From: Simplicispira suum
Lineage (GTDB): Bacteria > Pseudomonadota > Gammaproteobacteria > Burkholderiales > Burkholderiaceae_C
Reading direction: 5' to 3'
Assembly: GCF_003008595.1 (NCBI RefSeq)
Contig: NZ_CP027669.1
Location: 1-64,000, forward strand
DNA length: 64,000 nucleotides
Part shown: positions 6,305 through 63,071 of the stretch, one piece after another
How positions within the stretch are numbered: the first letter of the stretch is position 1
Layout of the letters: the number at the start of each line of letters is the position of its first letter
Made by a program: the position numbers and the translations under genes
Notes under the pieces: model-generated
What the model was told of the DNA's origin: nothing
The model's input: only the letters and a program-made list of their open reading frames with translations
Databases searched by the model: none

Positions 6305-6360
6305 TTTTTGCCCCTGTCGCTTGCTATATATAGATAGTTTGCTACATATTAAATAGCAAT
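6305..6360 (+). repeat. Dispersed ~55-bp repeat, copy 1 (degenerate)
   Basis: Between metY and the first GGDEF gene. It has the family pattern TTTTGCCCCTGTCGCTTG then TTTGCTACATATTAAATAGC. It is more diverged than most copies. Confidence 0.6.
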
Positions 6361-6382
6361 CACGCAACTGACGGCAGCCAGT

Positions 6383-8353
6383 ATGTGCTGCGTCAGAAGG
6401 AGCTGGTCTGCGGCCTGCGATGATAGGCGCCTCACCAGCTCCTGCGCCTTGAGCGCAGTCCGTGCCTTGGTGCATCGGCGTCTCTTTTTCCATCCGCATT
6501 GCGCGCTGCGCTGGCTGCTTTGCGTGCTGGCTCTGGCAGGCGCATCTGTAGCGCTCGCCAGCAGTGGCGACCCCGCTGCGCCAGCGAACAGAACGCTGGA
6601 CGTGACCCATGCTTCGGCAGGGCCGCTGACCCTCACACCGTGGTTCGATGTGCTGGAAGACCCCTCCGGCGCACTCAGTTTCGAGCAGATCCGCTCCCCG
6701 GACATCGCTGCACGCTTCACTCCCAGTGGCCGTTCCGGCACGGCCCTGAACTTTGGCATCACTCCCTCCGCCTGGTGGCTGCGGCTGCGGCTGGCCAACC
6801 CCGGCGACGGTGCGCTGGACCGCTTGCTCGAAGTGGCCTACGCGCGCCTGTCCCACCTGGACTTCTACGCGCCGCAAAGCGACGGCACCTGGCAGCAGCT
6901 GCACACCGGCACCACCCAGCCCTTTGACAGCCGGGGCTACGCGCACCGCAACTTCGTCTTTGGCATCGCCCTGCCGGCGCACGCCGAACCAACGATTTAT
7001 TTGCGCATTGCGTCCACCACCGCCTTCGTCGTGCCGACCCGCCTGTGGGAGCCCGCAGCGTTTCATGCCTTTGAGCGCAGCGACTACGCCGCACAGGCCT
7101 GGTACTTCGGCATGGTGGCCGCCATGGTGCTGTTCAATCTGCTCCTGTTCGTGCGCCTCAAGGACTGGCTGTACCTGCAATACGTCGGCTTTGCGCTCTC
7201 GGTGGCCTTTGCGATGGCGGCGCAAAACGGTCTGGTGAAAGAGGTGTTCCGGCTCGAATCGCCCCTGTGGTCCGACCTGTGCACCAGCTTTGGCTACTGT
7301 TTTTCGATCGCCAGCGGCACGCTCTTCATGCGCCGCATGGTGGAAGTACCGCGCTTGCTGCCCCGTCTGGACCCATGGCTGAAGGGCTTCATCAGCTTTT
7401 ATTTTCTCAGTCCCTTTTTGTTCCTGGTGCCGGGCCAGACCTTGATCAAGGCAATGGCTGTGGGCTACATACTGGCCATCGCCGTCGTCCTGTCGGTGGC
7501 CGCATACAGCGCCTGGCTGCGCCAGCGCAGCGCGTATTTCTTTCTGGCCGCCTTCACGCTGGTGTGCCTGGGTGCGGCCATCTACGCACTGCATGCAATA
7601 GGCCTGATGCCTACCAATGTGCTGACGGCCAACGCCATTCAGCTTGGATCGACCCTGGAGATGATTCTGCTGGCACTGGCGCTGGCCGACCGTTTTATCC
7701 AGATGCGGCGCGAGCGAGCGGCCATGCAAGCGCAGTTGCTTGCCACGCAAAAAACCTTGATTGATACCCTTCGCCACAATGAGCAGCGCCTGGAAGAGCA
7801 TGTGGCTGAGCGCACCGTGGCCCTGGAAGCGGCTAATCGCCGGCTTGAGGCCTTGAGCCGCACCGATGGCCTCACCGGCATCGCCAACCGGCGCCGATTC
7901 GACGAGGTACTGGCCAGCGAATGGGCACGCTCGCAACGCAGCGGCGAACCGCTGGCGCTGGCCATGATCGACATCGACTGGTTCAAGGCCTACAACGACC
8001 ACTACGGACATCTGGCGGGCGACGACTGCCTGCGCAGTGTTGCGGGCGTGCTGGCGAACTGCGCAGCGCGCAGCACCGATCTGGTGGCACGTTACGGCGG
8101 AGAGGAATTTGCCATCATTTCACCGCATACCACGGCGGCGCAGATGCAGGCCTTGGTACTGGCACTTCAGCAATCCCTGGCGGCTCTGGCGCTGCCGCAC
8201 CCCACTACACCAAGCTGCTGCGTCACGCTCTGTGCGGGTGTCGCTGCGCAAATAGCCCAGCCAGGTGAAGCGCCCGAAGCCCTGGTGGCAGCGGCCGATC
8301 AGGCGCTCTACCAGGCCAAGGTCGCAGGGCGCAATGGGGTGGTGCTTGCTTGA
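6383..8353 (+). CDS. 7TMR-DISM membrane diguanylate cyclase (GGDEF), paralog A
   Basis: Up to 656 aa. After a signal-like hydrophobic stretch (about residues 38-58) there is an extracellular 7TMR-DISMED2-like beta domain (about 75-220, including WWLRLRLANPG). A 7-helix membrane block follows (about 230-430), then a short coiled coil and a C-terminal GGDEF domain (about 485-650). The active site is GGEEF at 572-576 and the allosteric I-site is RSTD at 563-566, so it should make cyclic di-GMP with product inhibition. The start is unsure: an in-frame GTG at 6470 would place the signal peptide nearer the N-terminus. It is followed by a close paralog, an evident tandem duplication. Confidence 0.88.
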   Translation: MCCVRRSWSAACDDRRLTSSCALSAVRALVHRRLFFHPHCALRWLLCVLALAGASVALASSGDPAAPANRTLDVTHASAGPLTLTPWFDVLEDPSGALSFEQIRSPDIAARFTPSGRSGTALNFGITPSAWWLRLRLANPGDGALDRLLEVAYARLSHLDFYAPQSDGTWQQLHTGTTQPFDSRGYAHRNFVFGIALPAHAEPTIYLRIASTTAFVVPTRLWEPAAFHAFERSDYAAQAWYFGMVAAMVLFNLLLFVRLKDWLYLQYVGFALSVAFAMAAQNGLVKEVFRLESPLWSDLCTSFGYCFSIASGTLFMRRMVEVPRLLPRLDPWLKGFISFYFLSPFLFLVPGQTLIKAMAVGYILAIAVVLSVAAYSAWLRQRSAYFFLAAFTLVCLGAAIYALHAIGLMPTNVLTANAIQLGSTLEMILLALALADRFIQMRRERAAMQAQLLATQKTLIDTLRHNEQRLEEHVAERTVALEAANRRLEALSRTDGLTGIANRRRFDEVLASEWARSQRSGEPLALAMIDIDWFKAYNDHYGHLAGDDCLRSVAGVLANCAARSTDLVARYGGEEFAIISPHTTAAQMQALVLALQQSLAALALPHPTTPSCCVTLCAGVAAQIAQPGEAPEALVAAADQALYQAKVAGRNGVVLA

Positions 8354-8375
8354 GAAAAGATCCTGGATTTTAACG

Positions 8376-8421
8376 AAAACCGTTCTGTAGCAGGTGTCGA
8401 TTGCTCTTGTTTTAATAGCAA
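8376..8421 (+). repeat. Dispersed ~55-bp repeat, copy 2 (degenerate)
   Basis: Between the two GGDEF paralogs: AAAACCGTTCTGTAGCAG, then TTGTTTTAATAGCAA. It keeps the family ends but has lost the inner palindrome. Confidence 0.45.
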
Positions 8422-8523
8422 TAAACCATTGCACTTGCTACGGAGATAACGCGATTCTGGCCTGTGGCGGTGTAGCTCTGCCATCATGCGCGCCTTGCCG
8501 TCGGCATTTGGTCCCTGCCCTTC

Positions 8524-10386
8524 ATGCGCTGTCTCCTGTATCGGTCCTGGTGTTTGTCGCTTCGCTTCCTCGTGACAGCGTGGTGTCTGCTCGCGGCGGC
8601 GTGGGCAAATGCTGCTCCCGGCCCCGTGCTGGATGCGGCTGCGACAGGCGCATCGCCTACCCCCCTGACCGCCTGGTTCGAGTTGCTGGAAGATCCCAAG
8701 GGCACGCTCACCCTGGAGCAAGTCCGCTCGCCCGAATACCGTGCCCGGTTCATCCCCAGCAGGGACAGCGGCGAAGCGCTGAACTTTGGCATCACCCCCT
8801 CCACCTGGTGGCTGCGCCTGCGGCTGGCGAACGGGAGCAGCACTGGCGTTGAGCGCCTGCTGGAAGTCGCGTACGCGCGCCTGTCCCACCTGAACTTCTA
8901 CGCGCCGGAGGCCGGCGGCCATGTTCGCACCATTGAGACCGGCACCACTGCACCGTTTGAGAGCCGTGGCTACCTGAACCGCAATTTCGTCTTCCCCGTC
9001 ATCCTGCCTCCCCAGACCGAACAAACCCTGTACCTGCGGGTGGCCTCGACCACGGCATTCATCGTGCCGGCCCGGCTCTGGGAACCCACTGCTTTTCACG
9101 CCTACGAGCGCAGCGACTACACGGTGCAAGCGTGGTACTTCGGCATGGCGGCGGCCATGGTGCTGTTCAACCTGCTCTTGTTCGTGCGCCTCAAGGACTG
9201 GCTGTACCTGCAGTACGTGGGCTTCGCGCTCTCAATGGCCTTCGCCCTGGCGGCGCAAAACGGCCTGGTGAAAGAAGCCTTCCGGCTCGAATCCGCCCTG
9301 TGGTCCGATGTGTGCACCAGCTTTGGCTATTCGTTTGCGCTGGCCAGCGGCATGCTGTTCCTGCGCCGCATGGTGGAGACGCGGCGCCTGCTGCCTCGCC
9401 TGGAGCCATGGTTGCAGGGTTTCATCGCATTTTTCCTTATCAGTCCCTTGCTGTTTCTGGTGACAGGTCAGGCGCTGATCAAGGCTGCCGCCCTGACCTA
9501 TCTGCTGGCCATGGTCACCCTGATGGGCGTCGCGATCTACGCCGCCTGGCGGCGCCAACGCAGCGCGTATTTCTTTTTGGCAGCGTTCGCGCTGCTGGGC
9601 TTGGGCGCGGTTACCAATGCGTTGCGCGCCATGGGGCAGGTGCCCAGCAACGTTTTTACCGCCAATGCCATGCAGTTCGGCTCGGCACTGGAGATGATCT
9701 TGCTGGCGCTGGCGCTGGCCGACCGCTTCAACCAGATGCGCCGCGAGAAAGCGATCATGCAGGCAGAGCTGCTGGCCACGCAAAAGGCCTTGATCGACAC
9801 GCTGAAGGACAACGAGCTACGCCTGGAAGCGCGCGTCACCGAACGCACTGCCGCTCTGGAGACGGCCAACCACCGGCTCAGAGCCCTGAGCCGTACCGAT
9901 GGCCTCACGGCCATCGCGAACCGACGCCGGTTTGACGAGGTGCTGGCCAACGAATGGGCGCGCTCACAGCGAACCGGCGAACCCTTGGCGCTGGCCATGC
10001 TTGATATCGACTGGTTCAAGGCCTACAACGATCACTACGGTCACCTGGCGGGCGACGACTGCCTGCGCACCGTGGCAGGCGTGCTGGCGAATTGCGCAGT
10101 ACGCAGCACCGACCTGGTGGCGCGCTATGGTGGAGAGGAATTCACCATCGTCGCCCCCGGAACCACGGCGGCGCAGATGCAGGCCTTGGCACTGGAAGTC
10201 CAGCAGGCGCTGGCCGCCCTGGCGCTGCCCCATCCCACCACACCGAGCGGCTGCGTCACGCTCAGTGCCGGCGTCGCAGCACACATTGCCCAGGCGGGTG
10301 AAACACCCGAAAGCCTGGTGGCAGCCGCAGACCAGGCGCTGTACCAGGCCAAGGCCACGGGGCGCAACCGGGTGGTGCTTGCATGA
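8524..10386 (+). CDS. 7TMR-DISM membrane diguanylate cyclase (GGDEF), paralog B
   Basis: 620 aa with the same architecture as the gene upstream: signal peptide (about 8-36), extracellular 7TMR-DISMED2-like domain, seven membrane helices, a linker and a GGDEF domain. GGEEF is at 536-540 and the I-site RSTD at 527-530, so it is predicted catalytically active. The two proteins align end to end with long identical blocks such as LLLFVRLKDWLYLQYVGFAL and DWFKAYNDHYGHLAGDDCLR. The N-terminal segment and periplasmic domain differ most, so the two may sense different ligands with the same output. ATG 8524 places the signal peptide at the start. Confidence 0.92.
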   Translation: MRCLLYRSWCLSLRFLVTAWCLLAAAWANAAPGPVLDAAATGASPTPLTAWFELLEDPKGTLTLEQVRSPEYRARFIPSRDSGEALNFGITPSTWWLRLRLANGSSTGVERLLEVAYARLSHLNFYAPEAGGHVRTIETGTTAPFESRGYLNRNFVFPVILPPQTEQTLYLRVASTTAFIVPARLWEPTAFHAYERSDYTVQAWYFGMAAAMVLFNLLLFVRLKDWLYLQYVGFALSMAFALAAQNGLVKEAFRLESALWSDVCTSFGYSFALASGMLFLRRMVETRRLLPRLEPWLQGFIAFFLISPLLFLVTGQALIKAAALTYLLAMVTLMGVAIYAAWRRQRSAYFFLAAFALLGLGAVTNALRAMGQVPSNVFTANAMQFGSALEMILLALALADRFNQMRREKAIMQAELLATQKALIDTLKDNELRLEARVTERTAALETANHRLRALSRTDGLTAIANRRRFDEVLANEWARSQRTGEPLALAMLDIDWFKAYNDHYGHLAGDDCLRTVAGVLANCAVRSTDLVARYGGEEFTIVAPGTTAAQMQALALEVQQALAALALPHPTTPSGCVTLSAGVAAHIAQAGETPESLVAAADQALYQAKATGRNRVVLA

Positions 10387-10399
10387 TTGCAATCTATAG

Positions 10400-10457
10400 A
10401 AAAATTGCCTCTGGCGCTTATTCAGCAAGCCCTGATAGCTCTTAAATCAATAGCAAA
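10400..10457 (+). repeat. Dispersed ~55-bp repeat, copy 3
   Basis: AAAATTGCCTCTGGCGCTTA, then CAAGCCCTGATAGCTCTT and TCAATAGCAAA. It lies between the second GGDEF gene and the convergent egtB, abutting the egtB stop. Confidence 0.75.
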
Positions 10458-11714
10458 CTAGAGACTCTGCGCCAGCCGCAGTCCGCTGAACTGCCAGCGC
10501 GCCGTGGTAGGAAAGAAGTTGCGGTACGAAAGCCGCGCATGCCCCGGCGGCGTGGCGCAGGAGCTTCCGCGCAGCACGTACTGGTTGACCATGAATTTGC
10601 CGTTGTATTCGCCCACCGCCCCTTTGGCAGCGCGAAAGCCAGGGTACGGCGCGTAGCTCGACTGCGTCCACTGCCAGACTTCGCCAAACAGCTCGCGCAG
10701 GCCCTTGCCGCCTGCGGCCTCGGGCTCGATGCGCTCGCGCGGCGCGCCGGCTTGGGCCAGCATGGCGGGCGCAAGAGACATTGCGGATGCGGCGGCCGCT
10801 TCCCACTCCGCCTCGGTGGGCAGGCGGGCACCCGCCCAGCGCGCGTAGGCATCGGCTTCAAAGTACGACAGATGCGCCACTGGGGCCTGTGGCGCGATCG
10901 GCTGCTCGCCGTGCAGGCCAAACCGGTTCCAGCCGCCCTGCTCTGCCTGGCGCCAGTACAGCGGATGGGCAAGCTGCTGCGCCGCGAGCCAGTCCCAGCC
11001 CTCGGCCAGCCACAGCTCGGGCCGCAGGTAGCCGCCATCGGCAATGAAGGCAGCGAACTCGGACTGGTTCACCAGCCGCTCCCCCAGGGCATAGGGCGCG
11101 AGGAAGCTGGCATGGCGCGGCAGCTCGTTGTCAAAGCAAAACCCGGTGCCAAGGTGGCCCACATCTGCCAAGCCACCGGGGAACTCCAGCCAAGCCATCG
11201 GCTGCACAGGCGCCGTACCCTGCAGCGGCGCGGCATCGCGGTAGGCCGGCGCGGTGGGGTTGCAGGAGAGCAAATGCAGCACATCGGTCAGCAACAATTC
11301 CTGGTGCTGCTGTTCGTGCTGCATGCCCAGCTCCACCAAGGCGCGCAGTGCCGCGTTGCCGTCTTGCTGCGCCAGCAAGGCGTGCATGCGCTGTTCTACG
11401 TTGCTGCGGTAAGCAAGCACCTCGGACAATGCCGGCCGGGTAAGCAAGCCGCGCTGTGGGCGCGGGTGTTTGGCGCCCACACCGTTGTAGTAGGAATTGA
11501 ACAGCACCCGAAAGGCCGGGTGGAACGGCTGAAAACCCGGTTCATTCGGCTCCAGCACAAAAGTCTCAAAGAACCAGGTGGTGTGCGCCAGGTGCCACTT
11601 GACGGGGCTGGCGTCGGGCATGGACTGGGCGCTGCAATCTTCGGCAGACAGGGGCTCGGCCAGCACGGCGGTGTGGTGGCGAACCGCTGCAAAACGGATC
11701 AGAAGATCGTTCAT
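10458..11714 (-). CDS. egtB: Ergothioneine biosynthesis protein EgtB (sulfoxide synthase)
   Basis: 418 aa. An N-terminal DinB-like bundle carries the metal ligands: His in WHLAHTTWFFETF and the HEQQHQE motif (HxxxHxE). A C-terminal formylglycine-enzyme-like fold follows, with WLEFPGG, HLSYFEADAYARWAGARL PTEAEWE, and GSSCATPPGHARLSYRNFF. EgtB is a mononuclear iron enzyme that couples hercynine to a thiol and oxidises it. The start is ATG 11714, 13 bp after the egtD stop; the frame stays open upstream only as antisense to egtD. No egtA, egtC or egtE is adjacent, which would suit a cysteine-using short pathway, but that is inference. Confidence 0.93.
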   Translation of the reverse strand: MNDLLIRFAAVRHHTAVLAEPLSAEDCSAQSMPDASPVKWHLAHTTWFFETFVLEPNEPGFQPFHPAFRVLFNSYYNGVGAKHPRPQRGLLTRPALSEVLAYRSNVEQRMHALLAQQDGNAALRALVELGMQHEQQHQELLLTDVLHLLSCNPTAPAYRDAAPLQGTAPVQPMAWLEFPGGLADVGHLGTGFCFDNELPRHASFLAPYALGERLVNQSEFAAFIADGGYLRPELWLAEGWDWLAAQQLAHPLYWRQAEQGGWNRFGLHGEQPIAPQAPVAHLSYFEADAYARWAGARLPTEAEWEAAAASAMSLAPAMLAQAGAPRERIEPEAAGGKGLRELFGEVWQWTQSSYAPYPGFRAAKGAVGEYNGKFMVNQYVLRGSSCATPPGHARLSYRNFFPTTARWQFSGLRLAQSL

Positions 11715-13763: not shown

Positions 13764-13803
13764 GGGAATCCTTGTGGGTCAGGTTAAGGTCAGAGATTTT
13801 GAT

Positions 13804-13860
13804 AAAAACCGGCTTCTAGCGCTTGTAGGACATGCGCTGATAGCTATATTTTTAATAGTG
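13804..13860 (+). repeat. Dispersed ~55-bp repeat, copy 4
   Basis: AAAACCGGCTTCTAGCGCTT, then ATGCGCTGATAGCTAT and TTTTTAATAG. One of the best conserved copies, between purL and the DUF808 gene. Confidence 0.85.
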
Positions 13861-13994
13861 AATCAGCTCAAATGGATGCTTATAGCGGCTAACAAAACTC
13901 AGCGAAGCGGCCCTGGCTAGGCGTTCCGTCTCAGGCAGTACGGGCAGTACGACAAGACGGAACAACGACGCCAGGGGAGTTTTGTTCGTCGCTC

Positions 13995-16900: not shown

Positions 16901-18038
16901 CGGTCATGATTTGCAAGGGGCTGGCAATGTGGCCGGGCTTGCCGCCCTCCGCATCCGACAGGCCGCCCCAGAGCTTGGACACCGTGAAACCTGTCAGGCC
17001 CGCTTTTGGCTTGGAGCCGCGCCCGGTGGCGCCTTCGTCGCGGATTTCGCCACCCGCGCCGGTCGAAGCGCCAGGGAAGGGCGAGATGGCCGTGGGGTGG
17101 TTGTGCGTTTCCACCTTCATCAGCACATGCTGCAGCAAGCTCTCTTTTTCGTAGCTGGGAGCGCTTGCCCCACCTGCGCTGGAGGCCGATTTGGCTTGAA
17201 ATTTCTCGACCACGCCGCCTTCCATCACCGATGCGTTGTCCGAGTACGCCACCACGGTGTGCTGCGGGCTCGTCTTGTGGGTGTGGCGGATCATGCCGAA
17301 CAGGGTCAGATCCTGCGGCGCGCCGTCGATGGTGAACTGCGCGTTGAAGATCTTGTGCCGGCAGTGCTCGCTGTTGGCCTGCGCAAACATCATCAGTTCG
17401 ACATCGGTGGGGTTGCGCCCCAAGCTGGTGAACGCCTGCACCAGGTAGTCGATCTCGTCGGCGGCCAGCGCCAGGCCCCACTGCGTGTTGGCCGTCTCCA
17501 ATGCCGCGCGGCCACCGGCCAGCACGTCGACCAGCGCCATCGGCTGGGCCGGCAGTTCGGTAAACAGCGCGCGGGCGGCCTCCACGTCGGTGAACCACGA
17601 TTCGGTCATGCGGTCGTGCAGCAGCGCGCCCACCTGGGCGATCTGGCCGGCGTCCAGCGACTTCACACCGCCCAGCAGGCCCGAGCGCAGGCTGATGCGG
17701 TATTCGGTCACGCGCTCGATGCGGCGCACGTCCAGGCCGCAGTTGTGGGCAATGTCGCTGGCCTTCGAAGCCCAGGGCGACACAGTGCCCAGGCGCGGCG
17801 CCACCACAATCGCCTGTCCGGCGTCCCCGCCCTCGAACGGCTCGCCGTAGTTCAGCAGCGCCGCCAGCCGCTCGGTCTCGGCTGCAGTGGGCACTTTGGG
17901 TGTCGCCACCCAGTGCACGTGGCGCGCGCGCACCGCATCGATGCGGGGTTCAATGGCCTGCAGTTGCGGCAACAACTGGCGCGCACGGAAAGGGCTCAGG
18001 GCGTTGCCGCCCACAAACAGGGTCAGGTGCAAAGTCAC
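13995..18038 (-). CDS. purL: Phosphoribosylformylglycinamidine synthase (single-chain PurL)
   Basis: 1347 aa, the full length of the proteobacterial large FGAM synthase. The N-terminal linker and AIRS-like domains carry [36 protein letters not shown], and [10 protein letters not shown]. The C-terminal glutamine amidotransferase begins near [16 protein letters not shown] and has the nucleophile Cys in [14 protein letters not shown] plus a late MMPHPERVF. It converts FGAR, glutamine and ATP to FGAM in purine synthesis. The start is GTG 18038 (reads VTLHLTLF), diverging from map. A long open frame on the opposite strand is only an antisense shadow of this GC-rich gene. Confidence 0.97.
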
Positions 18039-19055: not shown

Positions 19056-21686
19056 ATGAATCTGACCCCTCCTCCCGCAGCCAGCACGCCGAACCTCCAG
19101 GCTCTGCGTGAAGCCTACCGCAGCGACAAGGCGGCCCTGGTCGCCACACTGCTTGCGCCGCTGCCTACCGTGCGCGGCATTCATGGCCTGCTGCGCCGGT
19201 TCAACCGGCTGGCCGATCGTTTGCTGCACACCCTGTGGAAGGCCAGCGCCCTGCCCCCTGGCCTGGCGCTGCTGGCGGTGGGCGGCTTTGGCCGTGGGCA
19301 ATTGCTGCCCTATTCGGATGTCGACGTCGTGGTGCTGCTGCCGGGCGGCTCGCACGCGGCGCTGGGAACCGATACGCGGGCACGCGTTGAAGACTTCATT
19401 CGCAACTGCTGGGACGCGGGGCTGGAGATCGGCTCCAGCGTGCGCTCGGTGCAGGAATGCCTGCAGGAAGCAGCCGATGACGTCACCGTGCAGACCTCGC
19501 TGCTGGAGGCGCGGCGCATCTGCGGCAGCGCCGCGCTGTTCGGCCGCTTTGAGCGGGAATTTCGCGCATCCATCGACCCGCGCGCCTTTCTGACCGCCAA
19601 AACGCTGGAGCTGCGCCAGCGCCACAACAAATACGAAAACACCGCTTACGCGCTGGAGCCCAACGCCAAGGAGTCGCCCGGCGGCCTGCGCGACCTGCAA
19701 ACCATCTTGTGGGTGGCCGACGCGGCCGGCCTGGGCCAGAGCTGGCGCGCGCTCGCAGCCAGCGGTCTGGCTACGGTGTATGAAATGCACCAACTCGAAC
19801 GCAACGAAGCCGTGCTGCTCTTGATTCGTGCACGCTTGCACGCCGTGGCCGGGCGGCGCGAAGACCGGCTGGTGTTCGATCTGCAAACCACCGTGGCCGA
19901 GGCGTTTGGCTACCGCAGCGCTTCCGAAGGCGGCTCGCACCTGCCCCTGCGCCCAAGCGAAACCCTGATGCGGCGCTATTACTGGGCCGCCAAGGCGGTC
20001 ACGCAGCTCACGCAGATCCTGCTGCTCGACATTGAAGACCGGCTCAATCCGCCGCAGACGCCACCGATTCCCATCGACGAGCGTTTTCTGGACAAGGGCG
20101 GAATGATCGAGGTGGCCAGCGACGATCTGTACCAGCGCGACCCGCACGCCATCCTGGAAACCTTCTTGCTGTTCCAATCTTCGTCGGCGCTGCAAAACCT
20201 CTCGGCGCGCACACTGCGGGCGCTGTACGCTGCGCGCAACGTGATGAACAGCGCGTTTCGCAACGACCCGGTGAACCGCGCGGCCTTCTTGCACATCCTG
20301 CAGCAGCCCTCCGGCATCACCCACGCCATGCGGCTGATGAACCAGACCTCGGTGCTGGGGCGCTACCTCTGGCCGTTTCGCCGCATCGTGGGACAAATGC
20401 AGCACGATTTGTTCCACGTTTACACGGTGGACCAGCACATCCTGATGGTGCTGCGCAATGCGCGGCGTTTCTTCATGGCCGAGCATGCGCACGAGTACCC
20501 GTTTTGCTCGCAACTCGCCGCTGGCTGGGACAAGCCCTGGGTGCTCTACATTGCCGCGCTGTTCCACGACATCGGCAAGGGGCGCGGCGGCGACCATTCG
20601 CAAATCGGCGCAGTGGCGGTGCGGCGCTTTTGCCGCCAGCACGCCGTGGACCGGCCAGACGCGCGTTTGATCGAATTTCTGGTGCGCGAGCACCTCACGA
20701 TGAGCCGCGTGGCGCAAAAAGAAGATCTGAGCGACCCGGATGTGATCACTGCCTTCGCGCGGCACGTGGGCAACGAGCGCTACCTCACCGCGCTCTACCT
20801 GCTCACCGTGGCCGACATTCGCGGCACCAGCCCCAAAGTGTGGAACGCGTGGAAAGGCAAATTGCTGGAAGACCTGTACCGGGCGACGCTGCGTGTGCTG
20901 GGTGGGCGCGCACCCGACGCCGCTGCCGAAGTCGAGGCCCGCAAGCGCGACGCCCTGGTGCTGCTGGCACTCAGTGCCCTGCCATTCGAAGCACACAAGG
21001 CACTTTGGGACACGCTGGACGTGGGCTATTTCATGCGCCACGAGGCCACCGACATCGCCTGGCACACACGCCACCTCTCGCGCCACGTCGGCAGCAGCCG
21101 CCCCGTTGTCAGCGCCCGCCAGTCGCCCGTGGGCGAAGGCTTGCAGGTCATGGTCTACACCGCCGACCGAAACGACTTGTTTGCCCGCATTTGCAGCTAC
21201 TTTGATCAAGCGGGCTTCAGTATTCTGGACGCGCGCATTCACACCACCCAGAACGGCTTTGCGCTTGACACCTTTCAGGTGGTCAGCGACAACCTGCCAG
21301 GGCACTACCGCGAGTTGACGCACCTGGTTGAAAGCGGCCTGATTCACGCGCTGCAGGACACCAACCCCCTGCCTGAGCCGAGGCGCAAGCGGGTTTCACG
21401 CCGGGTGCGCAACTTCCCCATGGCGCCGCGCGTGACCCTGCGCCCGGATGAAAAAGCCCAGCGCTGGCTGCTCGGCGTCTCGGCCAGCGACCGCGCCGGC
21501 CTGCTCTACTGCATTGCCCGGGTGCTGGCAAAGCACCAACTGAGCGTGCAACTGGCCAAGATCAGCACCCTGGGCGAGCGCGTGGAAGACACGTTTCTGG
21601 TGCAGGGGCCCGAACTGCAAAAGAATGCGGCGCAGATTCGCATCGAAACCGAGTTGCTGCAAGCGCTGGCCGGCGACGCCAGTTGA
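19056..21686 (+). CDS. glnD: Bifunctional PII uridylyltransferase / uridylyl-removing enzyme
   Basis: 876 aa with the standard order. The nucleotidyltransferase domain has [16 protein letters not shown] (metal Asp88 and Asp90). The HD phosphohydrolase domain has His504-Asp505 in [12 protein letters not shown]. Two C-terminal ACT domains begin near [15 protein letters not shown] and [16 protein letters not shown]. It senses glutamine and adds or removes UMP on Tyr51 of PII, so it controls nitrogen assimilation. A PII gene lies at 41043-41381. ATG 19056 is 45 bp past map, so cotranscription with map is likely. A repeat copy follows the stop. Confidence 0.97.
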
Positions 21687-21689
21687 TTA

Positions 21690-21745
21690 CTACTCAAACA
21701 ATAGCTGCCTGCGTACACCCATAAAGCGCTAGAGCCATTTTTTAC
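21690..21745 (-). repeat. Dispersed ~55-bp repeat, copy 5
   Basis: Read on the minus strand: AAAAAATGGCTCTAGCGCTT, then GGCAGCTATTGTTTGAGTAG. It follows the glnD stop by four bases. Confidence 0.75.
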
Positions 21746-21874
21746 TAAAAATTCGTCCTGTTCGCCGAGGCTGCACGCCCGGCACTGGCGCTACCATGGC
21801 CTGACGCGCGCTGCGCCCGGCCTGCCAGCCGGAGCGCAGCACCAAGCCATCCCCCCTTTGCAAGGAGTCCTCGC

Positions 21875-23509: not shown

Positions 23510-23556
23510 CAAGTTCCAGGGAACGCCCATTTCCTTGTATATAATCTAAGGCTTGT

Positions 23557-23632: not shown

Positions 23633-23645
23633 GAATATTTCATTG

Positions 23646-23673: not shown

Positions 23674-23685
23674 CATGCCGATTTT

Positions 23686-32738: not shown

Positions 32739-33572
32739 TTAGTTGTGCAGCCCACGTTCGTCGGGTTCATCGGTAGACGTGCTGATGACGCTGGTTTGCT
32801 GGCCTTTCGCCTTGCGCCATGCGTATACGCCATAGCCGCTGAACCCGTAGCAAACAAAAACCAAAAACAGCACCAGCGACGGACGTATGCTGATCATGGC
32901 CAAGCCCAGGGCAATCAGCACGATGACAGCAAAGGGCACGCTTTTTTTCATGTGCACGTCCTTGAAGCTGTAGAACGGCACATTGGTCACCATGGTGAGC
33001 CCGGAATAGAGCGTGAGGGCAAACATGATCCAGGTGATCTGGGTCCAGCTGAGCCATCCCGGCAGGTCGCGTGCGACCCCAAACTCGGTCAGCAACCAGA
33101 TGAACCCCGCGACCAGCGCGGCAGCGGCCGGCGATGGAAGTCCCTGAAAGAACCGCTTGTCGACCACGCTGGTGTTGACGTTGAAACGGGCGAGCCGCAA
33201 GGCAGCGCAGGCACAGTAGACAAAGGCCGCGATCCAGCCCCAGCGGCCAAGATCTTTCAGAGCCCATTCGTAGGCGATTAGCGCAGGGGCGGCGCCGAAG
33301 GACACCATGTCCGATAGCGAGTCCATTTGTTCGCCGAAAGCACTTTGCGTATTCGTCATGCGTGCCACGCGGCCGTCCAGGCTGTCGAGGACCATGGCAC
33401 AAAAAATACCAATGCCAGCCAGGTCGAAATGGCCGTTCATGGCCATGACGATGGCATAGAAGCCTCCGAACAACGCGGCGAGCGTGAACAGGTTGGGCAG
33501 TATGTAGATGCCCTTGCGCCGCTTGCGCACGAACACCCCATGGGACGTCCCGCCATCGTCGGTTTCATGCAT
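32739..33572 (-). CDS. pssA: CDP-diacylglycerol-serine O-phosphatidyltransferase
   Basis: 277 aa integral membrane enzyme. The CDP-alcohol phosphotransferase motif is complete: DSLDGRVARM, then FGEQMDSLSD (D-x2-DG-x2-AR-x8-G-x3-D-x3-D). Seven or eight helices are predicted. It makes phosphatidylserine, which Psd (3947-4812) decarboxylates to phosphatidylethanolamine. ATG 33572 has GGGAGG eight bases upstream; a TTG one codon earlier is ignored. Its place between ilvC and leuA is typical for Burkholderiales, where psd often sits beside it, but here psd is elsewhere. Confidence 0.95.
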   Translation of the reverse strand: MHETDDGGTSHGVFVRKRRKGIYILPNLFTLAALFGGFYAIVMAMNGHFDLAGIGIFCAMVLDSLDGRVARMTNTQSAFGEQMDSLSDMVSFGAAPALIAYEWALKDLGRWGWIAAFVYCACAALRLARFNVNTSVVDKRFFQGLPSPAAAALVAGFIWLLTEFGVARDLPGWLSWTQITWIMFALTLYSGLTMVTNVPFYSFKDVHMKKSVPFAVIVLIALGLAMISIRPSLVLFLVFVCYGFSGYGVYAWRKAKGQQTSVISTSTDEPDERGLHN

Positions 33573-33589
33573 CAAAAAGGCCTCCCGCG

Positions 33590-33630
33590 CTTAATTCTAT
33601 TGCGCATATAGCTAGTCTTTTAATAGTATT
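33590..33630 (+). repeat. Dispersed ~55-bp repeat, copy 6 (truncated)
   Basis: Only the right half is present: TGCGCATATAGCTAGT, then CTTTTAATAGTA. It lies just upstream of pssA. Confidence 0.55.
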
Positions 33631-33684
33631 TTCTCCGAGGACTCAGGCGGCAGTGTAGTCGTGGCTTTCAATCTGCCCCCAACG

Positions 33685-35378: not shown

Positions 35379-35454
35379 GAAAGGATTCCTCTTTTTGCTG
35401 CCCTCCGCGCGCGCCGGTAAGCGCGCACCTTGGCAGGCAATAGATTCGTCAAAA

Positions 35455-35510
35455 TACTATCGAGATGATAGCTGCTAAGGCTTATACAGCAAGCGCTGGA
35501 AGCCAATTTT
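35455..35510 (-). repeat. Dispersed ~55-bp repeat, copy 7
   Basis: Read on the minus strand: AAAATTGGCTTCCAGCGCTT, then AAGCCTTAGCAGCTATCA and CGATAGTA. It abuts the ilvB stop codon, inside the ilvB-ilvN operon. Confidence 0.85.
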
Positions 35511-35511
35511 C

Positions 35512-37299
35512 TTATAAATCCTCGGAGCCGAGCAGCATTTCAGTGATGCCCTTGCCGGCCTGGACCATGGGGAACACGTTCTCGGTCGGGTCGGTGCGGA
35601 AGTCCATGAACACCGTACGGTCCTTGAGCTTGCGGGCTTCGCGCAGCGCCGGCTCCACGTCTTGCGGGCGCTCGATCAGCATACCGACGTGGCCAAAGGC
35701 CTCGGCGAGCTTGACGAAATTGGGCAGTGCGTCCATGTAGCTGTGGCTGTAGCGGCCGGAGTATTCGATCTCCTGCCACTGGCGCACCATGCCCAGGTAC
35801 CGGTTGTTCAGCGACACCACCTTGATCGGGGTGTTGTACTGCAGGCAGGTGGAGAGCTCCTGGATGTTCATCTGCACCGAGCCTTCGCCGGTGATACAGA
35901 ATACCTCGCTTTGCGGCTTGGCCAGCTTGATGCCCATGGCATAGGGAATGCCCACGCCCATGGTGCCGAGCCCCCCGGAGTTGATCCAGCGGCGCGGCTC
36001 GTCGAAGCGGTAGTACTGCGCCGCCCACATCTGGTGCTGGCCGACGTCGGACGTGATGTAGGTGTCTGCGTCCTTGGTCATGTTCCAGAGCGTCTCGACC
36101 ACATACTGGGGCTTGATGACGTCCGAGCTACCCATGCTGTACTTGAGGCAGTCGCGGCTGCGCCAGCCTTCGATGGTGTCCCACCACGCCGCCAAGGCTC
36201 CAGCGTCGGCGCGGGTCGTGGTTTCGCGGATCATGGAGATCAGCTCGGTCAGCACGTCCTTGACATCGCCGACGATGGGGATATCGACCTTGACGCGCTT
36301 GGAAATGCTCGACGGGTCAATGTCGACGTGGATGATCTTGCGTTCGTTCTGCGCGAAGTGTTTGGGGTTACCAATGACGCGGTCGTCAAAACGCGCACCC
36401 ACAGCCAGCAGCACGTCGCAGTTTTGCATGGCATTGTTGGCTTGCACCGTGCCGTGCATGCCGGGCATGCCCAGGAATTTGCGATCGCTCGCAGGGTAGG
36501 CGCCCAAGCCCATCAGCGTGTTCGTTACCGGGTAGCCCAGCATGTCGACCAATGTGCGCAGTTCGTTCGTGGCGTTGCCGAGCAACACGCCGCCGCCGGT
36601 GTAGATGTAGGGGCGTTTGGCGGTCAGCAACAGCTGCAGCGCCTTGCGGATCTGCCCGCCGTGGCCGCGACGCACTGGGTTGTAGGAACGCATTTCCACC
36701 GTTTGCGGGTAGCCCTCGTAGGCAGCCTTCTTGAACGATACATCCTTGGGTATATCGACCACCACGGGCCCTGGACGGCCCGAGCGGGCAATGTGGAAAG
36801 CCTTTTTCAAGGTGATTGCCAGATCGCGCGGATCCTTGACCAGGAAGTTGTGCTTGACGATGGGGCGCGTGATGCCAACGGTGTCGCATTCCTGGAAGGC
36901 GTCCAGGCCGATCGCGGCCGTGGGCACCTGACCGGTGATGATCACCATCGGGATGCTGTCCATGTAGGCCGTGGCAATCCCGGTGACGGCATTGGTCACG
37001 CCAGGGCCCGAAGTGACCAGCGCCACGCCCACATCGCCTGTGGCGCGGGCATAACCGTCTGCCGCGTGGACAGCCGCCTGCTCGTGGCGCACCAGCACAT
37101 GCTGCATGGTGTCTTGCTTGTACAGCGCGTCGTAGATGTAGAGAACAGCACCGCCGGGGTAGCCCCAGATGTACTTGACGCCTTCGGCCTGCAAGGCCTT
37201 GACGAGGATTTCGGCCCCCATGAGTTCCTGGGGAGCGGGCGCAGCGCCCTGCTTTTGAGCGGCAGCTGCCGATGCGAGTTCGGCTGATGAGATTTCCAT
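35512..37299 (-). CDS. ilvB: Acetolactate synthase, large catalytic subunit
   Basis: 595 aa ThDP-dependent AHAS. The N-terminal domain has IWGYPGGAVLYIYDAL, the ThDP Glu in VRHEQAAVHAADGYAR and GVALVTSGPGVTNAVTGI. The C-terminal ThDP domain runs from CITGEGSVQMNIQELS to VSLNNRYLGMVRQWQ. It forms acetolactate or acetohydroxybutyrate, the first common step for Val, Leu and Ile. The first 20 or so residues are an Ala-rich extension before GAEILVKALQ. The 5' region holds a weak hairpin and T run (37327-37352), a possible attenuator. Confidence 0.96.
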   Translation of the reverse strand: MEISSAELASAAAAQKQGAAPAPQELMGAEILVKALQAEGVKYIWGYPGGAVLYIYDALYKQDTMQHVLVRHEQAAVHAADGYARATGDVGVALVTSGPGVTNAVTGIATAYMDSIPMVIITGQVPTAAIGLDAFQECDTVGITRPIVKHNFLVKDPRDLAITLKKAFHIARSGRPGPVVVDIPKDVSFKKAAYEGYPQTVEMRSYNPVRRGHGGQIRKALQLLLTAKRPYIYTGGGVLLGNATNELRTLVDMLGYPVTNTLMGLGAYPASDRKFLGMPGMHGTVQANNAMQNCDVLLAVGARFDDRVIGNPKHFAQNERKIIHVDIDPSSISKRVKVDIPIVGDVKDVLTELISMIRETTTRADAGALAAWWDTIEGWRSRDCLKYSMGSSDVIKPQYVVETLWNMTKDADTYITSDVGQHQMWAAQYYRFDEPRRWINSGGLGTMGVGIPYAMGIKLAKPQSEVFCITGEGSVQMNIQELSTCLQYNTPIKVVSLNNRYLGMVRQWQEIEYSGRYSHSYMDALPNFVKLAEAFGHVGMLIERPQDVEPALREARKLKDRTVFMDFRTDPTENVFPMVQAGKGITEMLLGSEDL

Positions 37300-41042: not shown

Positions 41043-43066
<2,024 letters not shown>

Positions 43067-43143: not shown

Positions 43144-44370
43144 ATGGCTGAAAAAGCGATTATCACCCGCGTACATACCAGTCCGCTGGCGCTGGACGCC
43201 GCCGAATGGAACGCGTTGCTGGCACAGCAAGGGCACGTCACTCCATTTATGCGCCATGAATATCTGGCTGCGCTGCACACGAGTGACAGCGCCGTGCCTG
43301 CGACTGGTTGGCACGCACGCTACCTGACGCTTGAGCAGGAAGGCCGATTGGTTGCCGCCTGCCCGCTGTACCTGAAAGAGCACTCCTACGGCGAGTACAT
43401 ATTCGACTGGGCCTGGGCACGCGCCTACCAGGAACACGGCCTGCACTACTACCCCAAGGCCCTGATCGCCGTGCCCTTCACCCCGGTGCCAGGCACCCGC
43501 CTGCTGGCGCGCGATGAATTTGCGCGCACGGCCCTCCTTCGTGCGGCAGTGGCTTGGTGTAAGGAGCAGTCTTTGTCTTCCCTGCACCTGCTTTTTGGCA
43601 GCGATGAGGACATGGCGGCAAGCAGAAATGTTGGGCTGATGCAGCGCACCACGGTGCAATTCCACTGGAACAACCGTGCGCCAGACGGTGGAAAATTCCG
43701 TGATTTCGAGCATTTTCTCGGCGCCCTTACCCAGGACAAGCGCAAGAAAATCCGCCAGGAACAGCGCCGCGTGCGGGATGCAGGCGTGCGCTTTCGCTGG
43801 GCGCGCAGCACAGACATTGCAGTTGCCGACTGGGAGTTCTTCTACCGCTGCTACGAACGCACCTATCTGGAGCACGGCAACCCGCCCTACCTCAGCCGTA
43901 CCTTCTTTGAGCGCATGGCGCAAGACATGCCGGACGCCTGGCTGCTGTTCATTGCCGAGCGGGGGGGACAGGCAATAGCTACCAGTTTGATAGCGATCAA
44001 CGCAGACCCATCAAGCGCTGGAGGCCAAAATGTATTGAATTTCCCGTCGCCAACAGCCTACGGACGCTACTGGGGAGCGCTGGAGCGCGTCGACAGCCTG
44101 CACTTCGACGCCTGCTACTACCAGCCGCTCGCCTGGTGCATTGCGCATGGATTGGGCGCCTTCGAGGGCGGCGCACAAGGTGAGCACAAAATGGCCCGCG
44201 CGCTGATGCCTGTGGCCACGCACAGCGCCCATTGGCTGGCGCACCCGGCCTTTGCCGACGCGGTGGAACGCTTCCTGGAGCGCGAAGATGCCGGCATGGC
44301 GGCGTATGTGGAAGAACTGCGGGCGCACACACCCTTTCGCACTGCAACGCGCCCGGCACCAAACCCCTGA
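43144..44370 (+). CDS. COG3146 / DUF482 GNAT-like acyltransferase
   Basis: 408 aa. It belongs to the family annotated as putative peptidoglycan-related N-acyltransferases (COG3146, FemAB-like double GNAT). Landmarks are PFMRHEYLAALHTSDSAVP, YGEYIFDWAWARAYQEHG, YYPKALIAVPFTPVPGTRL, LTQDKRKKIRQERR-like KRKKIRQEQRRV, and AFEGGAQGEHKMARALMPV. The substrate is unknown. Between residues about 277 and 297 a dispersed repeat is translated in frame (AIATSLIAINADPSSAGGQN), enlarging the loop before AYGRYWGALE. ATG 43144 is chosen because it gives the usual start; the next gene is the suf operon. Confidence 0.88.
   Translation: MAEKAIITRVHTSPLALDAAEWNALLAQQGHVTPFMRHEYLAALHTSDSAVPATGWHARYLTLEQEGRLVAACPLYLKEHSYGEYIFDWAWARAYQEHGLHYYPKALIAVPFTPVPGTRLLARDEFARTALLRAAVAWCKEQSLSSLHLLFGSDEDMAASRNVGLMQRTTVQFHWNNRAPDGGKFRDFEHFLGALTQDKRKKIRQEQRRVRDAGVRFRWARSTDIAVADWEFFYRCYERTYLEHGNPPYLSRTFFERMAQDMPDAWLLFIAERGGQAIATSLIAINADPSSAGGQNVLNFPSPTAYGRYWGALERVDSLHFDACYYQPLAWCIAHGLGAFEGGAQGEHKMARALMPVATHSAHWLAHPAFADAVERFLEREDAGMAAYVEELRAHTPFRTATRPAPNP
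43971..44031 (-). repeat. Dispersed ~55-bp repeat, copy 9, in frame inside the COG3146 gene
   Basis: Read on the minus strand: ATTTTGGCCTCCAGCGCTT, then TGCGTTGATCGCTATCAAAC and TAGCTATTG. A clear family member that leaves the host ORF open. Confidence 0.85.
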
Positions 44371-52508: not shown

Positions 52509-52528
52509 CGCTGTTGAGGCCTCTTTGA

Positions 52529-52590
52529 ATTGCTATTAATTAAATAGCATTCAACGCATATCTATAAAGCGCTAGAAGCGGTTTTTAATG
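52529..52590 (-). repeat. Dispersed ~55-bp repeat, copy 10
   Basis: Read on the minus strand: AAAAACCGCTTCTAGCGCTT, then ATGCGTTGAATGCTATTTAA and TTAATAGCAA. It lies between the convergent nsrR and chemoreceptor genes. Confidence 0.85.
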
Positions 52591-52601
52591 GAAAACCGTA
52601 G

Positions 52602-54344
52602 TTAGAACGATTCCCAGTCATCGCTCGCCCCTGCTCCGCCCTTCGCGGGCTTGGGCGCGGGCGCCGCAGGGGTGGCTTGCCGAGCAGTCGGCTTGGCCGA
52701 AATGCGTGCAGCAACCTTCGGCTTGGGCGCTGCCACGGCCGCTGCTGCCGTACGCTTTGGTGCGGCCACCGGCGCGCGCAACACCGTGTTGCTGCCTGCA
52801 AGCCGAAACACCGCGACAGACTGCACCAGATCCTCTGCCTGTCCCTTGAGACTGCTGGCGGCTGCCGCCATCTGCTCAACCAGCGCCGCGTTCTGCTGTG
52901 TGGCCTGGTCCATTTGCGTGACCGCCTCGCCGACTTGCGAGACACCCGAACTTTGCTCGCTGCTGGCTGCGCTGATTTCTGCCACGATATCGGTCACCCG
53001 GCGGATAGCGGCCACGACCTCATTCATGGTGGCCCCGGCCTTGCCTACCTGGTCGTTGCCCTGCTCGACACGCTCGACGCTGGCGGAAATCAGCGCCTTG
53101 ATTTCCTTGGCAGCATCGGCGCTGCGACCGGCCAGACTGCGCACTTCGCTGGCCACCACGGCAAAACCCCGGCCCTGCTCACCGGCCCGGGCCGCCTCGA
53201 CTGCCGCGTTCAGCGCCAGGATGTTGGTCTGGAAAGCAATGCCGTCGATCACCCCAATGATGTCGGCAATCTTGCGGCTGCTTTCGTTGATGCCCTTCAT
53301 GGTTTCCACGACCTGGGCCACCGTCTCGCCGCCCTGCTGCGCAACGCCCGAGGCGCTGACGGCCAGTTGATTCGCCTGGCGCGCGTTGTCGGCGTTCTGA
53401 CGCACGGTGCTGCTCAGTTCCTCCATGGAGGCTGCGGTTTCCTCAAGGGCACTGGCCTGCTGCTCGGTCCGCGCCGAAAGGTCGTGGTTGCCCTGGGCAA
53501 TTTCAGCGCTGGCAGTTGCCACGCTCTCAGAGCCTTCGCGCACCCGGGTCACGATGCGCACCACGCTGTTCCGCATGGCTTCTATGCCATGCAGGACGCT
53601 GCGCTCATCCGCAGGAGGAATTTCCACCGCCAGGTCGCCCTGCGAGATCCGGTTGGTGATGGAATTGAGAAGCTCGGGCTCTCCCCCCAATTGGGTCAGG
53701 ATGCCCCGCGTGAACCACCAACCGATCAGTCCCAGGACCAGGGCCAGGGCCAGGGCAATGGCCCCAGCCTCCCAAACACGACCCATGAACGTGTTCTGCA
53801 CCGTGTCCACGTAGACCCCGGAACCCACAATCCAGCCCCAAGGAGCGAAACCTTTGACAAATGAAACCTTCGCAACGGGATCCGTGCTCCCCGGCTTGGG
53901 CCACAGATAGTTGACAAAACCGGAGCCGTTCTTCTTCACCGTGTCGACAAATTCCACAAAAAGAAACTTGCCGGTGGGATCCTTATTGCCACTGAGATCT
54001 TGCCCCTCCAACTTGGTGCTGATGGGATGCATCACCATGGTTGGATGCATGTCGTTGATCCAGAAATACTCGGTGTCGCTGTAGCGCAGGGTGCGCACCG
54101 CTTCCTTGGCACGCTGCTTGGCCTCCTCTTGGGTCATCCCCCCCTTGCTCGCCTGCGCATGAAAATCGGCAATCACGCCATACGCGGTCTCCACCGCCTG
54201 ACGAACACTGCGCTCTCGCTCTTGCATGATCAGACTGCGCTCCGACACCATGAGAACTCCCGCGAGCACCAGCATGGCCAGCAAGGCAAGCCCCACGAGC
54301 CCGGAGAGGCGTCGTGAAATAGTGAGCTGTTTGAATGCGGTCAT
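52602..54344 (-). CDS. Methyl-accepting chemotaxis protein with sCache domain
   Basis: 580 aa. First membrane helix (about 13-33), periplasmic single Cache domain (about 38-190, with YFWINDMHPTMVMHP and PWGWIVGSGVYVD), second helix (about 193-213), HAMP (about 214-268) and a signalling domain whose tip is GIAFQTNILALNAAVEAARA. The C-terminus has an Ala/Pro/Lys-rich linker ending DDWESF, a pentapeptide-like tether for the adaptation enzymes CheR/CheB. The ligand is unknown; sCache receptors often bind small carboxylates. No che or flagellar genes are near. Confidence 0.94.
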   Translation of the reverse strand: MTAFKQLTISRRLSGLVGLALLAMLVLAGVLMVSERSLIMQERERSVRQAVETAYGVIADFHAQASKGGMTQEEAKQRAKEAVRTLRYSDTEYFWINDMHPTMVMHPISTKLEGQDLSGNKDPTGKFLFVEFVDTVKKNGSGFVNYLWPKPGSTDPVAKVSFVKGFAPWGWIVGSGVYVDTVQNTFMGRVWEAGAIALALALVLGLIGWWFTRGILTQLGGEPELLNSITNRISQGDLAVEIPPADERSVLHGIEAMRNSVVRIVTRVREGSESVATASAEIAQGNHDLSARTEQQASALEETAASMEELSSTVRQNADNARQANQLAVSASGVAQQGGETVAQVVETMKGINESSRKIADIIGVIDGIAFQTNILALNAAVEAARAGEQGRGFAVVASEVRSLAGRSADAAKEIKALISASVERVEQGNDQVGKAGATMNEVVAAIRRVTDIVAEISAASSEQSSGVSQVGEAVTQMDQATQQNAALVEQMAAAASSLKGQAEDLVQSVAVFRLAGSNTVLRAPVAAPKRTAAAAVAAPKPKVAARISAKPTARQATPAAPAPKPAKGGAGASDDWESF

Positions 54345-62032: not shown

Positions 62033-62033
62033 G

Positions 62034-63017
62034 ATGAACGCAAAGACAAAAGCCGCCGCAGCGGTCACCCTGGGCCTGGCCGTGGCGGCCTTCACCGGCT
62101 ACGGCCTGTGGCAGGCCGCCCAGCCCGCACCCGAGGTGTTCCAGGGCCAGATGGAAGCGCGCGAAGCCGACATCGCCCCCAAACTCAGCGCCCGCATTGC
62201 CGAAGTGCTGGTGAAAGAAGGCGACCAGATCGCCGTGGGCACGCCGCTGCTGCGGCTCGACAGCCCCGAAGTCGCCGCCAAGATGGCCCAGGCCACGGCC
62301 GCCCAGGCGGCAGCGCAGGCGGTGGCCAGCAAGGCCGCGCACGGCGCCCGCCCGCAAGAAATTGAAATGGCCCGCCTGACCTGGCAGCGCGCCCAGACGG
62401 CCGCTGAGTTGGCCGACACCTCGTTTCGCCGCGTGGAAGGCCTGGCTCGAGAAGGCCTGATTGCCGCCCAAAAACGCGACGAGGCCGACGCCAACCGCAA
62501 GGCCAGCCGGGATCAGGCGCTGGCCGCCAAGGCGCAGTACGACATGGCCCGCGCCGGCGCCCGCCCCGAAGACCAGGCGGCGGCCGCCGCACAGGCCCGC
62601 CAAGTGGCCGGCGTGGTGGCCGAAGTGCAGGCCGCTCAGGCCGAGACCGAGCTCAAAAGCCCGGTGGCCGGCGAAGTCGCCAAGGTGCTGGCGCGCGTGG
62701 GTGAACTCTCGCCCCAGGGCGTGGCCGTGGTGTCGGTGGTCGACCTGTCGGACCAGTGGGTGGTGCTGAACGTGCGCGAAGACCGGCTGCAGCGCTTTGC
62801 CGTGGGCAGCGAGTTCGACGCCACCCTGCCCGCGCTGGGCGAGCAGACGGTGCGCTTCAAGGTGTACGCCAACAGCGTGCTGCCCGACTTTGCCACCTGG
62901 CGCAGCACACGCGCCGGCCAGGGCTTTGACGTGCGCACCTTCGAAGTGCGCGCCCGCCCCGTAACCGCCCTGCCGGGCGCACGCCCCGGCATGAGCGTCT
63001 TGGTCAAAAATACATAA
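62034..63017 (+). CDS. HlyD/EmrA family membrane fusion protein
   Basis: 327 aa. N-terminal signal anchor (about 5-27), lipoyl-like half motif VFQGQMEAREADIAPKLSAR and IAEVLVKEGDQIAVG, a long Ala/Gln-rich helical hairpin (about 80-200), the second lipoyl half (ELKSPVAGEVAKVLARVGE), and a beta-barrel domain. It bridges inner membrane permease and TolC. It is of the YbhG/YhiI type that pairs with ABC-2 permeases. It ends next to a dispersed repeat. Confidence 0.92.
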   Translation: MNAKTKAAAAVTLGLAVAAFTGYGLWQAAQPAPEVFQGQMEAREADIAPKLSARIAEVLVKEGDQIAVGTPLLRLDSPEVAAKMAQATAAQAAAQAVASKAAHGARPQEIEMARLTWQRAQTAAELADTSFRRVEGLAREGLIAAQKRDEADANRKASRDQALAAKAQYDMARAGARPEDQAAAAAQARQVAGVVAEVQAAQAETELKSPVAGEVAKVLARVGELSPQGVAVVSVVDLSDQWVVLNVREDRLQRFAVGSEFDATLPALGEQTVRFKVYANSVLPDFATWRSTRAGQGFDVRTFEVRARPVTALPGARPGMSVLVKNT

Positions 63018-63071
63018 TAAATTGGCCTCTAGCGCAATCTCCATAAGCGCTAATAGCTATGAATTCAATAG
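63018..63071 (+). repeat. Dispersed ~55-bp repeat, copy 11, supplying an ATG
   Basis: AAATTGGCCTCTAGCGC, then AAGCGCTAATAGCTATG and AATTCAATAGTA. It lies between the HlyD gene and the permease gene; the permease start codon (63059) is inside it. Confidence 0.85.

Follow-up and report, generated by a model that had tools for sequence, protein, structure and literature searches.

ERIC/IRU and HIP1 are dispersed, palindromic and conserved bacterial sequences whose function is unsettled, ERIC being about 127 bp long, and the Rickettsia palindromic elements are known as whole inserted units. According to passages of two reports, HIP1 is the 8-bp sequence GCGATCGC and is linked to methyltransferases (PMC4390886), and the DNA uptake sequence (DUS) measures 10–12 nucleotides (nt) and can arise at new sites that are too diverged for an origin by point mutation (PMC2397512). 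Here we analyzed a dispersed repeat in the first 64,000 nucleotides of contig NZ_CP027669.1 from Simplicispira suum (assembly GCF_003008595.1), a stretch that we refer to as the window. At about 71 bp this repeat differs in length from both ERIC and HIP1, and passages on uptake sequences indicate that these share several features with it (PMC2397512, PMC7811141). We propose, with a probability of roughly 40%, that the copies are long dyad-symmetric duplex signals bound by a putative protein, perhaps in the service of chromosome topology.

Architecture and distribution of the repeat family

A seed profile was built from eight ungapped window copies and applied with a copy threshold of ≥15 bits, and the 153 copies that it found were used to construct an extended profile of 72 columns, with which calls in the window were made at ≥25 bits; the reversed genome sequence served as the negative control for both. 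The repeat unit is quasi-palindromic, AT-rich and about 71 bp long, corresponding to model positions −11 to 59. It extends further to the left than the pattern first described, and a length of about 55 bp, as given in the original prediction, is too short. In the seed-profile set, 150 of the 153 copies contain no insertion or deletion and spacing is nearly fixed. Positions 16–18 and 39–41 each carry one base in at least 97% of copies, and almost any base occurs at positions 24 and 25, which have 0.01 and 0.06 bits of information, respectively. The profile correlates with its own reverse complement at 0.54 about axis 24, as compared to 0.37 for the runner-up axis. The positions vary nearly independently of one another; the best pair among the 153 copies has a mutual information of 0.16, while the maxima of 20 column shuffles had a mean of 0.14 and a largest value of 0.17. 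The total information is about 58–65 bits per copy, a figure that is inflated because the copies were selected by profile score.

The seed profile yields 153 copies over 1.264 Mb of the S. suum genome and the extended profile yields 199 over 1.404 Mb, a sample from which two stretches (L167 and L168) that overlap later ones were left out. Neither profile finds a copy in the reversed sequence, where the best score of the extended profile is 7.3 bits. The genome-wide family suspected in the original prediction is therefore supported by a scan of roughly one third of the genome, which shows an excess of copies outside the window. In a search of the whole genome, the 150 candidates scored out of 1595 at first look are all chromosomal (E ≤ 7.7e-8), and 80 kb of plasmid pieces contain no copy with either profile (P = 3e-5 for the seed profile). 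By extrapolation from 199 copies in 1.404 Mb and none on the plasmid pieces, about 590 copies are expected on the 3.917-Mb chromosome. Searches by blastn of a plasmid collection with two single copies and of a phage collection with one gave no match, a weak test because the copies diverge. A degenerate pattern matched three viral contigs; by the profile, two of these have a single copy and the third has two.

Relatives were searched in the genus and in the family; in the family search the match counts per genome are lower bounds, owing to stricter filters and caps. Within the genus, 20 of 23 relatives have 124–133 of 133 scored matches; the exceptions are G002 with none, G005 with two and G008, which is 84% complete, with one. 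At E ≤ 0.001 a match is present in 66 of 200 genomes of the family (S. suum included) and in 47 of 126 genera, 40 of the 200 genomes having 23–26 of 26 scored matches, while none of 16 genomes from other families of the same order has a match. Nine of 80 named ilvB loci have a copy that scores ≥15 bits. The locus of Acidovorax sp. NB1 has three, at distances and on strands as in the genus of S. suum, an unassigned metagenome-assembled genome (MAG) has two, and Xenophilus, Extensimonas, a Comamonadaceae MAG and Rhodoferax, Polaromonas, Variovorax and Delftia MAGs have one each. In Acidovorax sp. CF316 (L031), what is apparently the right part of the motif only (GCTAT..ATAGC) follows the ilvB stop and precedes the ilvH RNA. 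Similar strings occur in Comamonadaceae genomes, and no published name for them is known to us. Literature searches aimed at the repeat gave no name for it among the matches listed, and the passages of PMC3733652 contain none of six genus or order names of the repeat-bearing group.

Convergent gaps between genes are favored by the repeat and divergent gaps are avoided. In S. suum, gaps of at least 60 bp contain a copy in 30 of 75 convergent, 71 of 413 codirectional and 13 of 131 divergent cases, and in G146, which belongs to another genus, the corresponding values for gaps of at least 55 bp are 10 of 22, 29 of 116 and 4 of 49. In codirectional gaps the copies lie a median of 17 bp past the upstream stop when they have the same sense as the genes (45 copies) and 7 bp when they are opposite (28 copies), so for these gaps the earlier claim of a usual place right behind stop codons is correct; in the window, the copies at 13793 and 33561 lie nearer the start of the next gene. 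Orientation is near-neutral, and three stretches gave same to opposite counts of 9/12, 6/9 and 17/21, the first of which partly overlaps the 45/28 sample. Close pairs are rare in one genus: measured against a gene-end null, S. suum has one pair less than 1.5 kb apart where 7.4 are expected (p = 0.001) and a second species, G007, has none where 6.6 are expected, none of 3000 draws being as low, although the two results are not independent of each other. Over 54 chromosomal pieces of 20 kb, the counts are mildly under-dispersed (variance/mean 0.68, p = 0.037) and copy density rises with GC content (rho 0.50, p = 1e-4) despite the AT-rich motif.

Conservation in place and copies inside genes

The copies are under purifying selection in place. 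The syntenic 64 kb of G007 aligns to the window in blocks that are 77–88% identical in DNA. All nine copies that the seed profile detects in the window have an ortholog there in the same place and on the same strand, and vice versa; with the extended profile all ten are common to both species, the tenth being matched by position, and the syntenic stretch holds none in addition. One exception is known outside the window, a copy in cca of S. suum that is absent from G007 with no change in length. Three loci were traced through 20 fetched relatives, with copies counted at ≥12 bits. The copy between ilvC and a pss-like gene is present in 14 of 18 relatives' stretches with the pss-like gene, that between ilvB and ilvH in 17 of 20 relatives (in one of them called on the opposite strand), and that inside a FemAB-like gene in all 14 stretches with this gene. 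G002, G005 and G008 have neither the ilvC/pss-like nor the ilvB–ilvH copy, and no copy is present in the FemAB homologs that G002 and G008 have elsewhere in the genome.

Identity between S. suum and G007 over eight loci is 92.5% at high-information positions, 72.2% at middle and 70.8% at low ones. Moreover, variability in the three ortholog sets anticorrelates with the information among paralogs (rho −0.55, −0.62 and −0.35; the G015 row, on the opposite strand, was dropped from set B), and variability in the flanks is 0.49–0.63 except for the right flank of the FemAB set, with 0.25. At unchanged residues of the FemAB-like gene, the 19 motif codons have a mean codon identity of 0.76, as compared to 0.62 for the 365 others (p = 0.02); residue identity in the motif is not higher than elsewhere (0.67 vs 0.72). 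Across genera, 38 orthologs could be compared between S. suum and G146: 11 of the G146 genes have a copy, four of which are shared with S. suum and all four in the same orientation, and two S. suum copies have no G146 counterpart (p = 0.11 for ends), numbers that are too small for a rate.

Among 146 placed copies, for which genes were called by a codon-usage script with approximate gene starts and seven edge copies were left out, 25 lie inside genes, 12 in sense and 13 in antisense and in recurrent reading frames; three contiguous stretches gave 9 of 41, 10 of 35 and 13 of 67, and the overall range is 17–29%. In truB the same gapless stretch of 46 residues is found with a copy (S. suum, G007, G022, G004 and G146) and without one (G002, G005, G008, G055, G059, G040 and G044), and seven further copy-free genomes have 42 or 45 residues. 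In cca the stretch has 44 residues both with a copy (S. suum, G004, G022 and G146) and without (G007, G002, G005, G008 and G059), and 40, 41, 45 or 56 residues in other genomes. The 12 copy-free truB and cca loci tested gave no match above 3.2 bits. The equal lengths with and without a copy indicate that gain or loss at these two sites went by substitution, and the loops that carry them may have been lengthened by about four codons earlier.

In the window, the extended profile finds ten copies, nine of which are among the eleven sites listed in the original prediction; a copy inside purL had been overlooked. Three of the ten lie inside genes, and for these the statement that the repeat encodes nothing is incorrect. 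The purL copy (17135..17205, minus strand, 39.7 bits) is in sense within an open reading frame (ORF, 13995–18038, minus strand) identified as PurL by a PDB match. Also in sense is the copy at 42287..42357 (minus strand, 25.9 bits) inside nadE (NAD synthase NF010588; ORF 41411–43105, minus strand), whose counterpart by position in G007 scores 27.5 bits. The copy at 43974..44044 (minus strand, 41.8 bits) is antisense within the FemAB-like gene (ORF 43129–44370, plus strand, PF04339). This gene is split into two matches in G004, G012, G015, G016 and G238 (L233–L237, L241–L245), with additional in-frame sequence around residue 185, and in G018 there is a second, partial FemAB-like gene with a copy of its own (L201:1710-2231).

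The remaining copies lie between genes or at their ends. That at 10388..10458 (plus strand, 45.1 bits) separates two convergent genes assigned by Pfam, a 7TMR-DISM/GGDEF gene ending at 10386 and an FGE-sulfatase/DinB_2 gene ending at 10458. The copy at 13793..13863 (plus strand, 44.8 bits) is located between two minus-strand genes, purL (stop at 13995) and a DUF808 gene (start at about 13763), and that at 21685..21755 (minus strand, 44.5 bits) follows glnD (19056–21686, plus strand, NCBIfam) in the orientation opposite to the glnD sense. The copy at 33561..33631 (plus strand, 30.9 bits) abuts the start of the pss-like gene, which Pfam assigns to the CDP-alcohol phosphatidyltransferases, and lies between this gene and ilvC (stop at 33735). 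The ilvB–ilvH copy (35452..35522, minus strand, 45.9 bits) lies between the ilvB stop (35512) and an ilvH RNA motif (Rfam RF02993, 84.6 bits), which is found directly behind it at 35383–35450 on the minus strand. A further copy (52528..52598, minus strand, 39.6 bits) is a few bases past the stop of a chemoreceptor-like gene (52602–54344, minus strand) whose NCBIfam chemotaxis matches are below cut-offs, and the last (63006..63076, plus strand, 44.7 bits) overlaps the end of a HlyD-like gene (62034–63017, plus strand, Pfam). Orthologs in G007 were recorded individually for the copies at 10388, 13793, 17135, 21685, 52528 and 63006. The site first placed at 6305 is probably a degenerate copy (6291..6361, plus strand, 13.6 bits, E = 0.003; best reversed-control score 7.3 bits), and that at 8376 is not supported (7.1 bits, E = 0.36); positions 8376–8470 contain inverted repeats of the type TTGCTAT/AATAGCAA with no fit to the family. 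Two tandem 7TMR-DISM/GGDEF genes at 6383–10386 are about 70–80% identical in DNA over long stretches, an apparent duplication, and two tRNA genes at 23553–23761, 129 bp apart, lie in 80-bp repeats that are 99% identical.

Candidate explanations for the repeat

A quasi-palindrome about a random centre, near-independent positions and conservation in place argue for a duplex signal that is read by an oligomeric protein, and the preference for the ends of transcription units suggests a role in topology or chromosome organization. Each copy would be a dyad-symmetric double-stranded DNA signal of about 71 bp read by a putative dimeric or tetrameric DNA-binding protein, or by two proteins, and occupied sites behind transcription units, about one per 6–7 kb, would organize the chromosome or handle supercoiling. 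Among the three kinds of element first suggested for the repeat, a protein-binding site is, by inference, the best fit. Several points weigh against this proposal. G002 (no match) and G005 (two matches) manage without the repeat, no protein for the signal was identified and no gene tested is linked to the presence of the motif. The information content of 58–65 bits far exceeds what one binding site needs. For a site that serves transcript ends it is odd to find copies within genes, in the ilvB–ilvH pair and next to the pss-like start, and placement at gene ends may reflect permissive places only. There is no replication-strand (leading/lagging) or ori–ter bias (80:73). Finally, G146 has seven pairs less than 1.5 kb apart where 11.6 are expected (p = 0.057, suggestive only), and its overall spacing is no more even than the null. 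Stated more broadly, and still tentatively, a dyad-symmetric signal of 71 bp and about 60 bits might be written and kept by in-place substitution, even through essential genes, at some 600 sites per chromosome in many genera of one family and might represent a long-signal recognition system, for chromosome architecture or self-marking, that has no described counterpart known to us.

The main rival to a protein-read signal is a self-marker of the uptake type, in which biased exchange (molecular drive) enriches the core genome for a sequence that uptake or recombination prefers, as happens with the uptake sequences DUS and USS, with no use at the individual site. It is in keeping with the permissive locations, near-neutral orientation and few close pairs in one genus, with the near lack of correlation between positions and with two proxies for a core bias, the relation of density to GC content (rho 0.50) and the lack of copies on the sampled plasmid DNA, as if acquired DNA lacked the repeat. 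We nevertheless judge it unlikely; 71 bp and about 58–65 bits are far beyond the 10–12 nt of DUS. A ComEC-family match (PF03772), rejected as a discriminator because the motif-free G002 and G005 have it too, is present in all 15 better-quality genomes and was not found in the 84% complete G008. An ancient mobile family like the repetitive extragenic palindromic (REP) sequences or miniature inverted-repeat transposable elements (MITEs), which ceased to move and whose copies were later retained, strikes us as more doubtful still. Copying is the easiest way to spread a long shared sequence to hundreds of places, and there are many copy-free ilvB–ilvH spacers, whose divergence is too great to locate an insertion point and its target-site duplications. 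Moreover, the purL copy comes with 5 extra codons relative to G002/G005 and the FemAB-like copy with 15 relative to the G002/G008 homologs, the latter being weak evidence at only 47% identity. Set against these points, all ten window positions are common to S. suum and G007 and the truB and cca orthologs are equal in length with and without a copy, on which grounds insertion was rejected as the main explanation. The positions show no subfamily correlation, and the extra residues near six in-gene copies, read by eye from alignments with solved homologs (NadE 3 with PDB 4f4h, TruB 4, AroE 5, RumA 8, pyruvate dehydrogenase E1 9 and Tex 10), amount to 3–10, fewer than the 20–24 codons of the unit. 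A link to RAYT-like transposases was rejected on both co-occurrence and flanking copies: a Y1-type match is present in 22 of 26 genus genomes including the copy-poor G002, G005 and G008 and is not found in the copy-rich G003, in eight loci around RAYT-like genes only one copy reaches 15 bits, at a distance of about 3.3 kb in G004, and the one such gene of S. suum (G000:C1:2421692-2422024, in a 249-aa frame) has no copy in the surrounding 8 kb. The suggestion of a MITE- or REP-like element is therefore not supported, in view of the fixed positions between two species, the truB and cca copies and the missing transposase link.

A bidirectional intrinsic terminator or another RNA structure at transcript 3' ends, the remaining suggestion of the original prediction, is favored by the position of the copies after stop codons and within convergent gaps and seems improbable on the other evidence. 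Under a loose rule, 35 of 153 copies are terminator-like in the forward and 50 in the reverse direction. Codirectional gene ends are terminator-like more often with a copy (28/57) than without (64/216; p = 0.007), the values for convergent ends being 22/51 and 20/65 (p = 0.18), and of 50 terminator-like ends with a copy, 43 have the T tract within or at it and 7 have it outside. The latter count suggested that copies stand in for terminators, an idea that was removed by a length-matched control (G007, as orthologous to S. suum, was excluded), in which ends with a copy show no shortage of separate terminator-like sites (8 of 90 ends vs 8.3 expected). Stem pairs among paralogs are mostly at expectation, for example 91 Watson–Crick pairs at 19/29 vs 94.9, with small excesses at 17/31, 16/32, 41/53, 39/55 and 36/58, and compensation at 19/29 is seen among the orthologs of two loci (p = 0.0025), which are, however, related sequences. 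An RNA hairpin was rejected on this near absence of covariation in paralogs, although weak covariation could be missed because a profile-selected set favors the consensus. The copies inside genes in both senses (12 and 13) and the one between ilvB and ilvH also speak against a terminator, as does the near-neutral orientation.

Relation to known systems

Dispersed repeats of bacteria are usually filed as mobile debris. The copies examined here are fixed in place and conserved position by position, and the truB and cca copies overlie protein-coding sequence into which nothing was inserted. Should they be read by a protein, a large environmental family would possess a chromosome-scale DNA reader whose sites are listed by the genome itself; if drive made them, the signal would exceed by far the length of any uptake signal known to us.

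The repeat resembles REP/BIME sequences and REPINs with their RAYT in being palindromic and in having hundreds of copies, at gene ends and in both orientations. It is unlike them in that it has no RAYT link, its window positions are fixed relative to G007, its truB and cca copies are not insertions and its stem hardly covaries. With the Rickettsia palindromic elements it shares the palindrome and the reading through inside genes in recurrent frames, whereas the in-gene lengths compared here differ by 0–15 codons only and most of its copies are intergenic. Unlike the 10–12-nt DUS, the repeat extends over about 71 bp with dyad symmetry. It has in common with the DUS of Neisseriaceae and the uptake signal sequences (USS) of Pasteurellaceae hundreds of conserved copies, an apparent bias to core DNA, permissive and gene-end locations and, in one genus, few close pairs.

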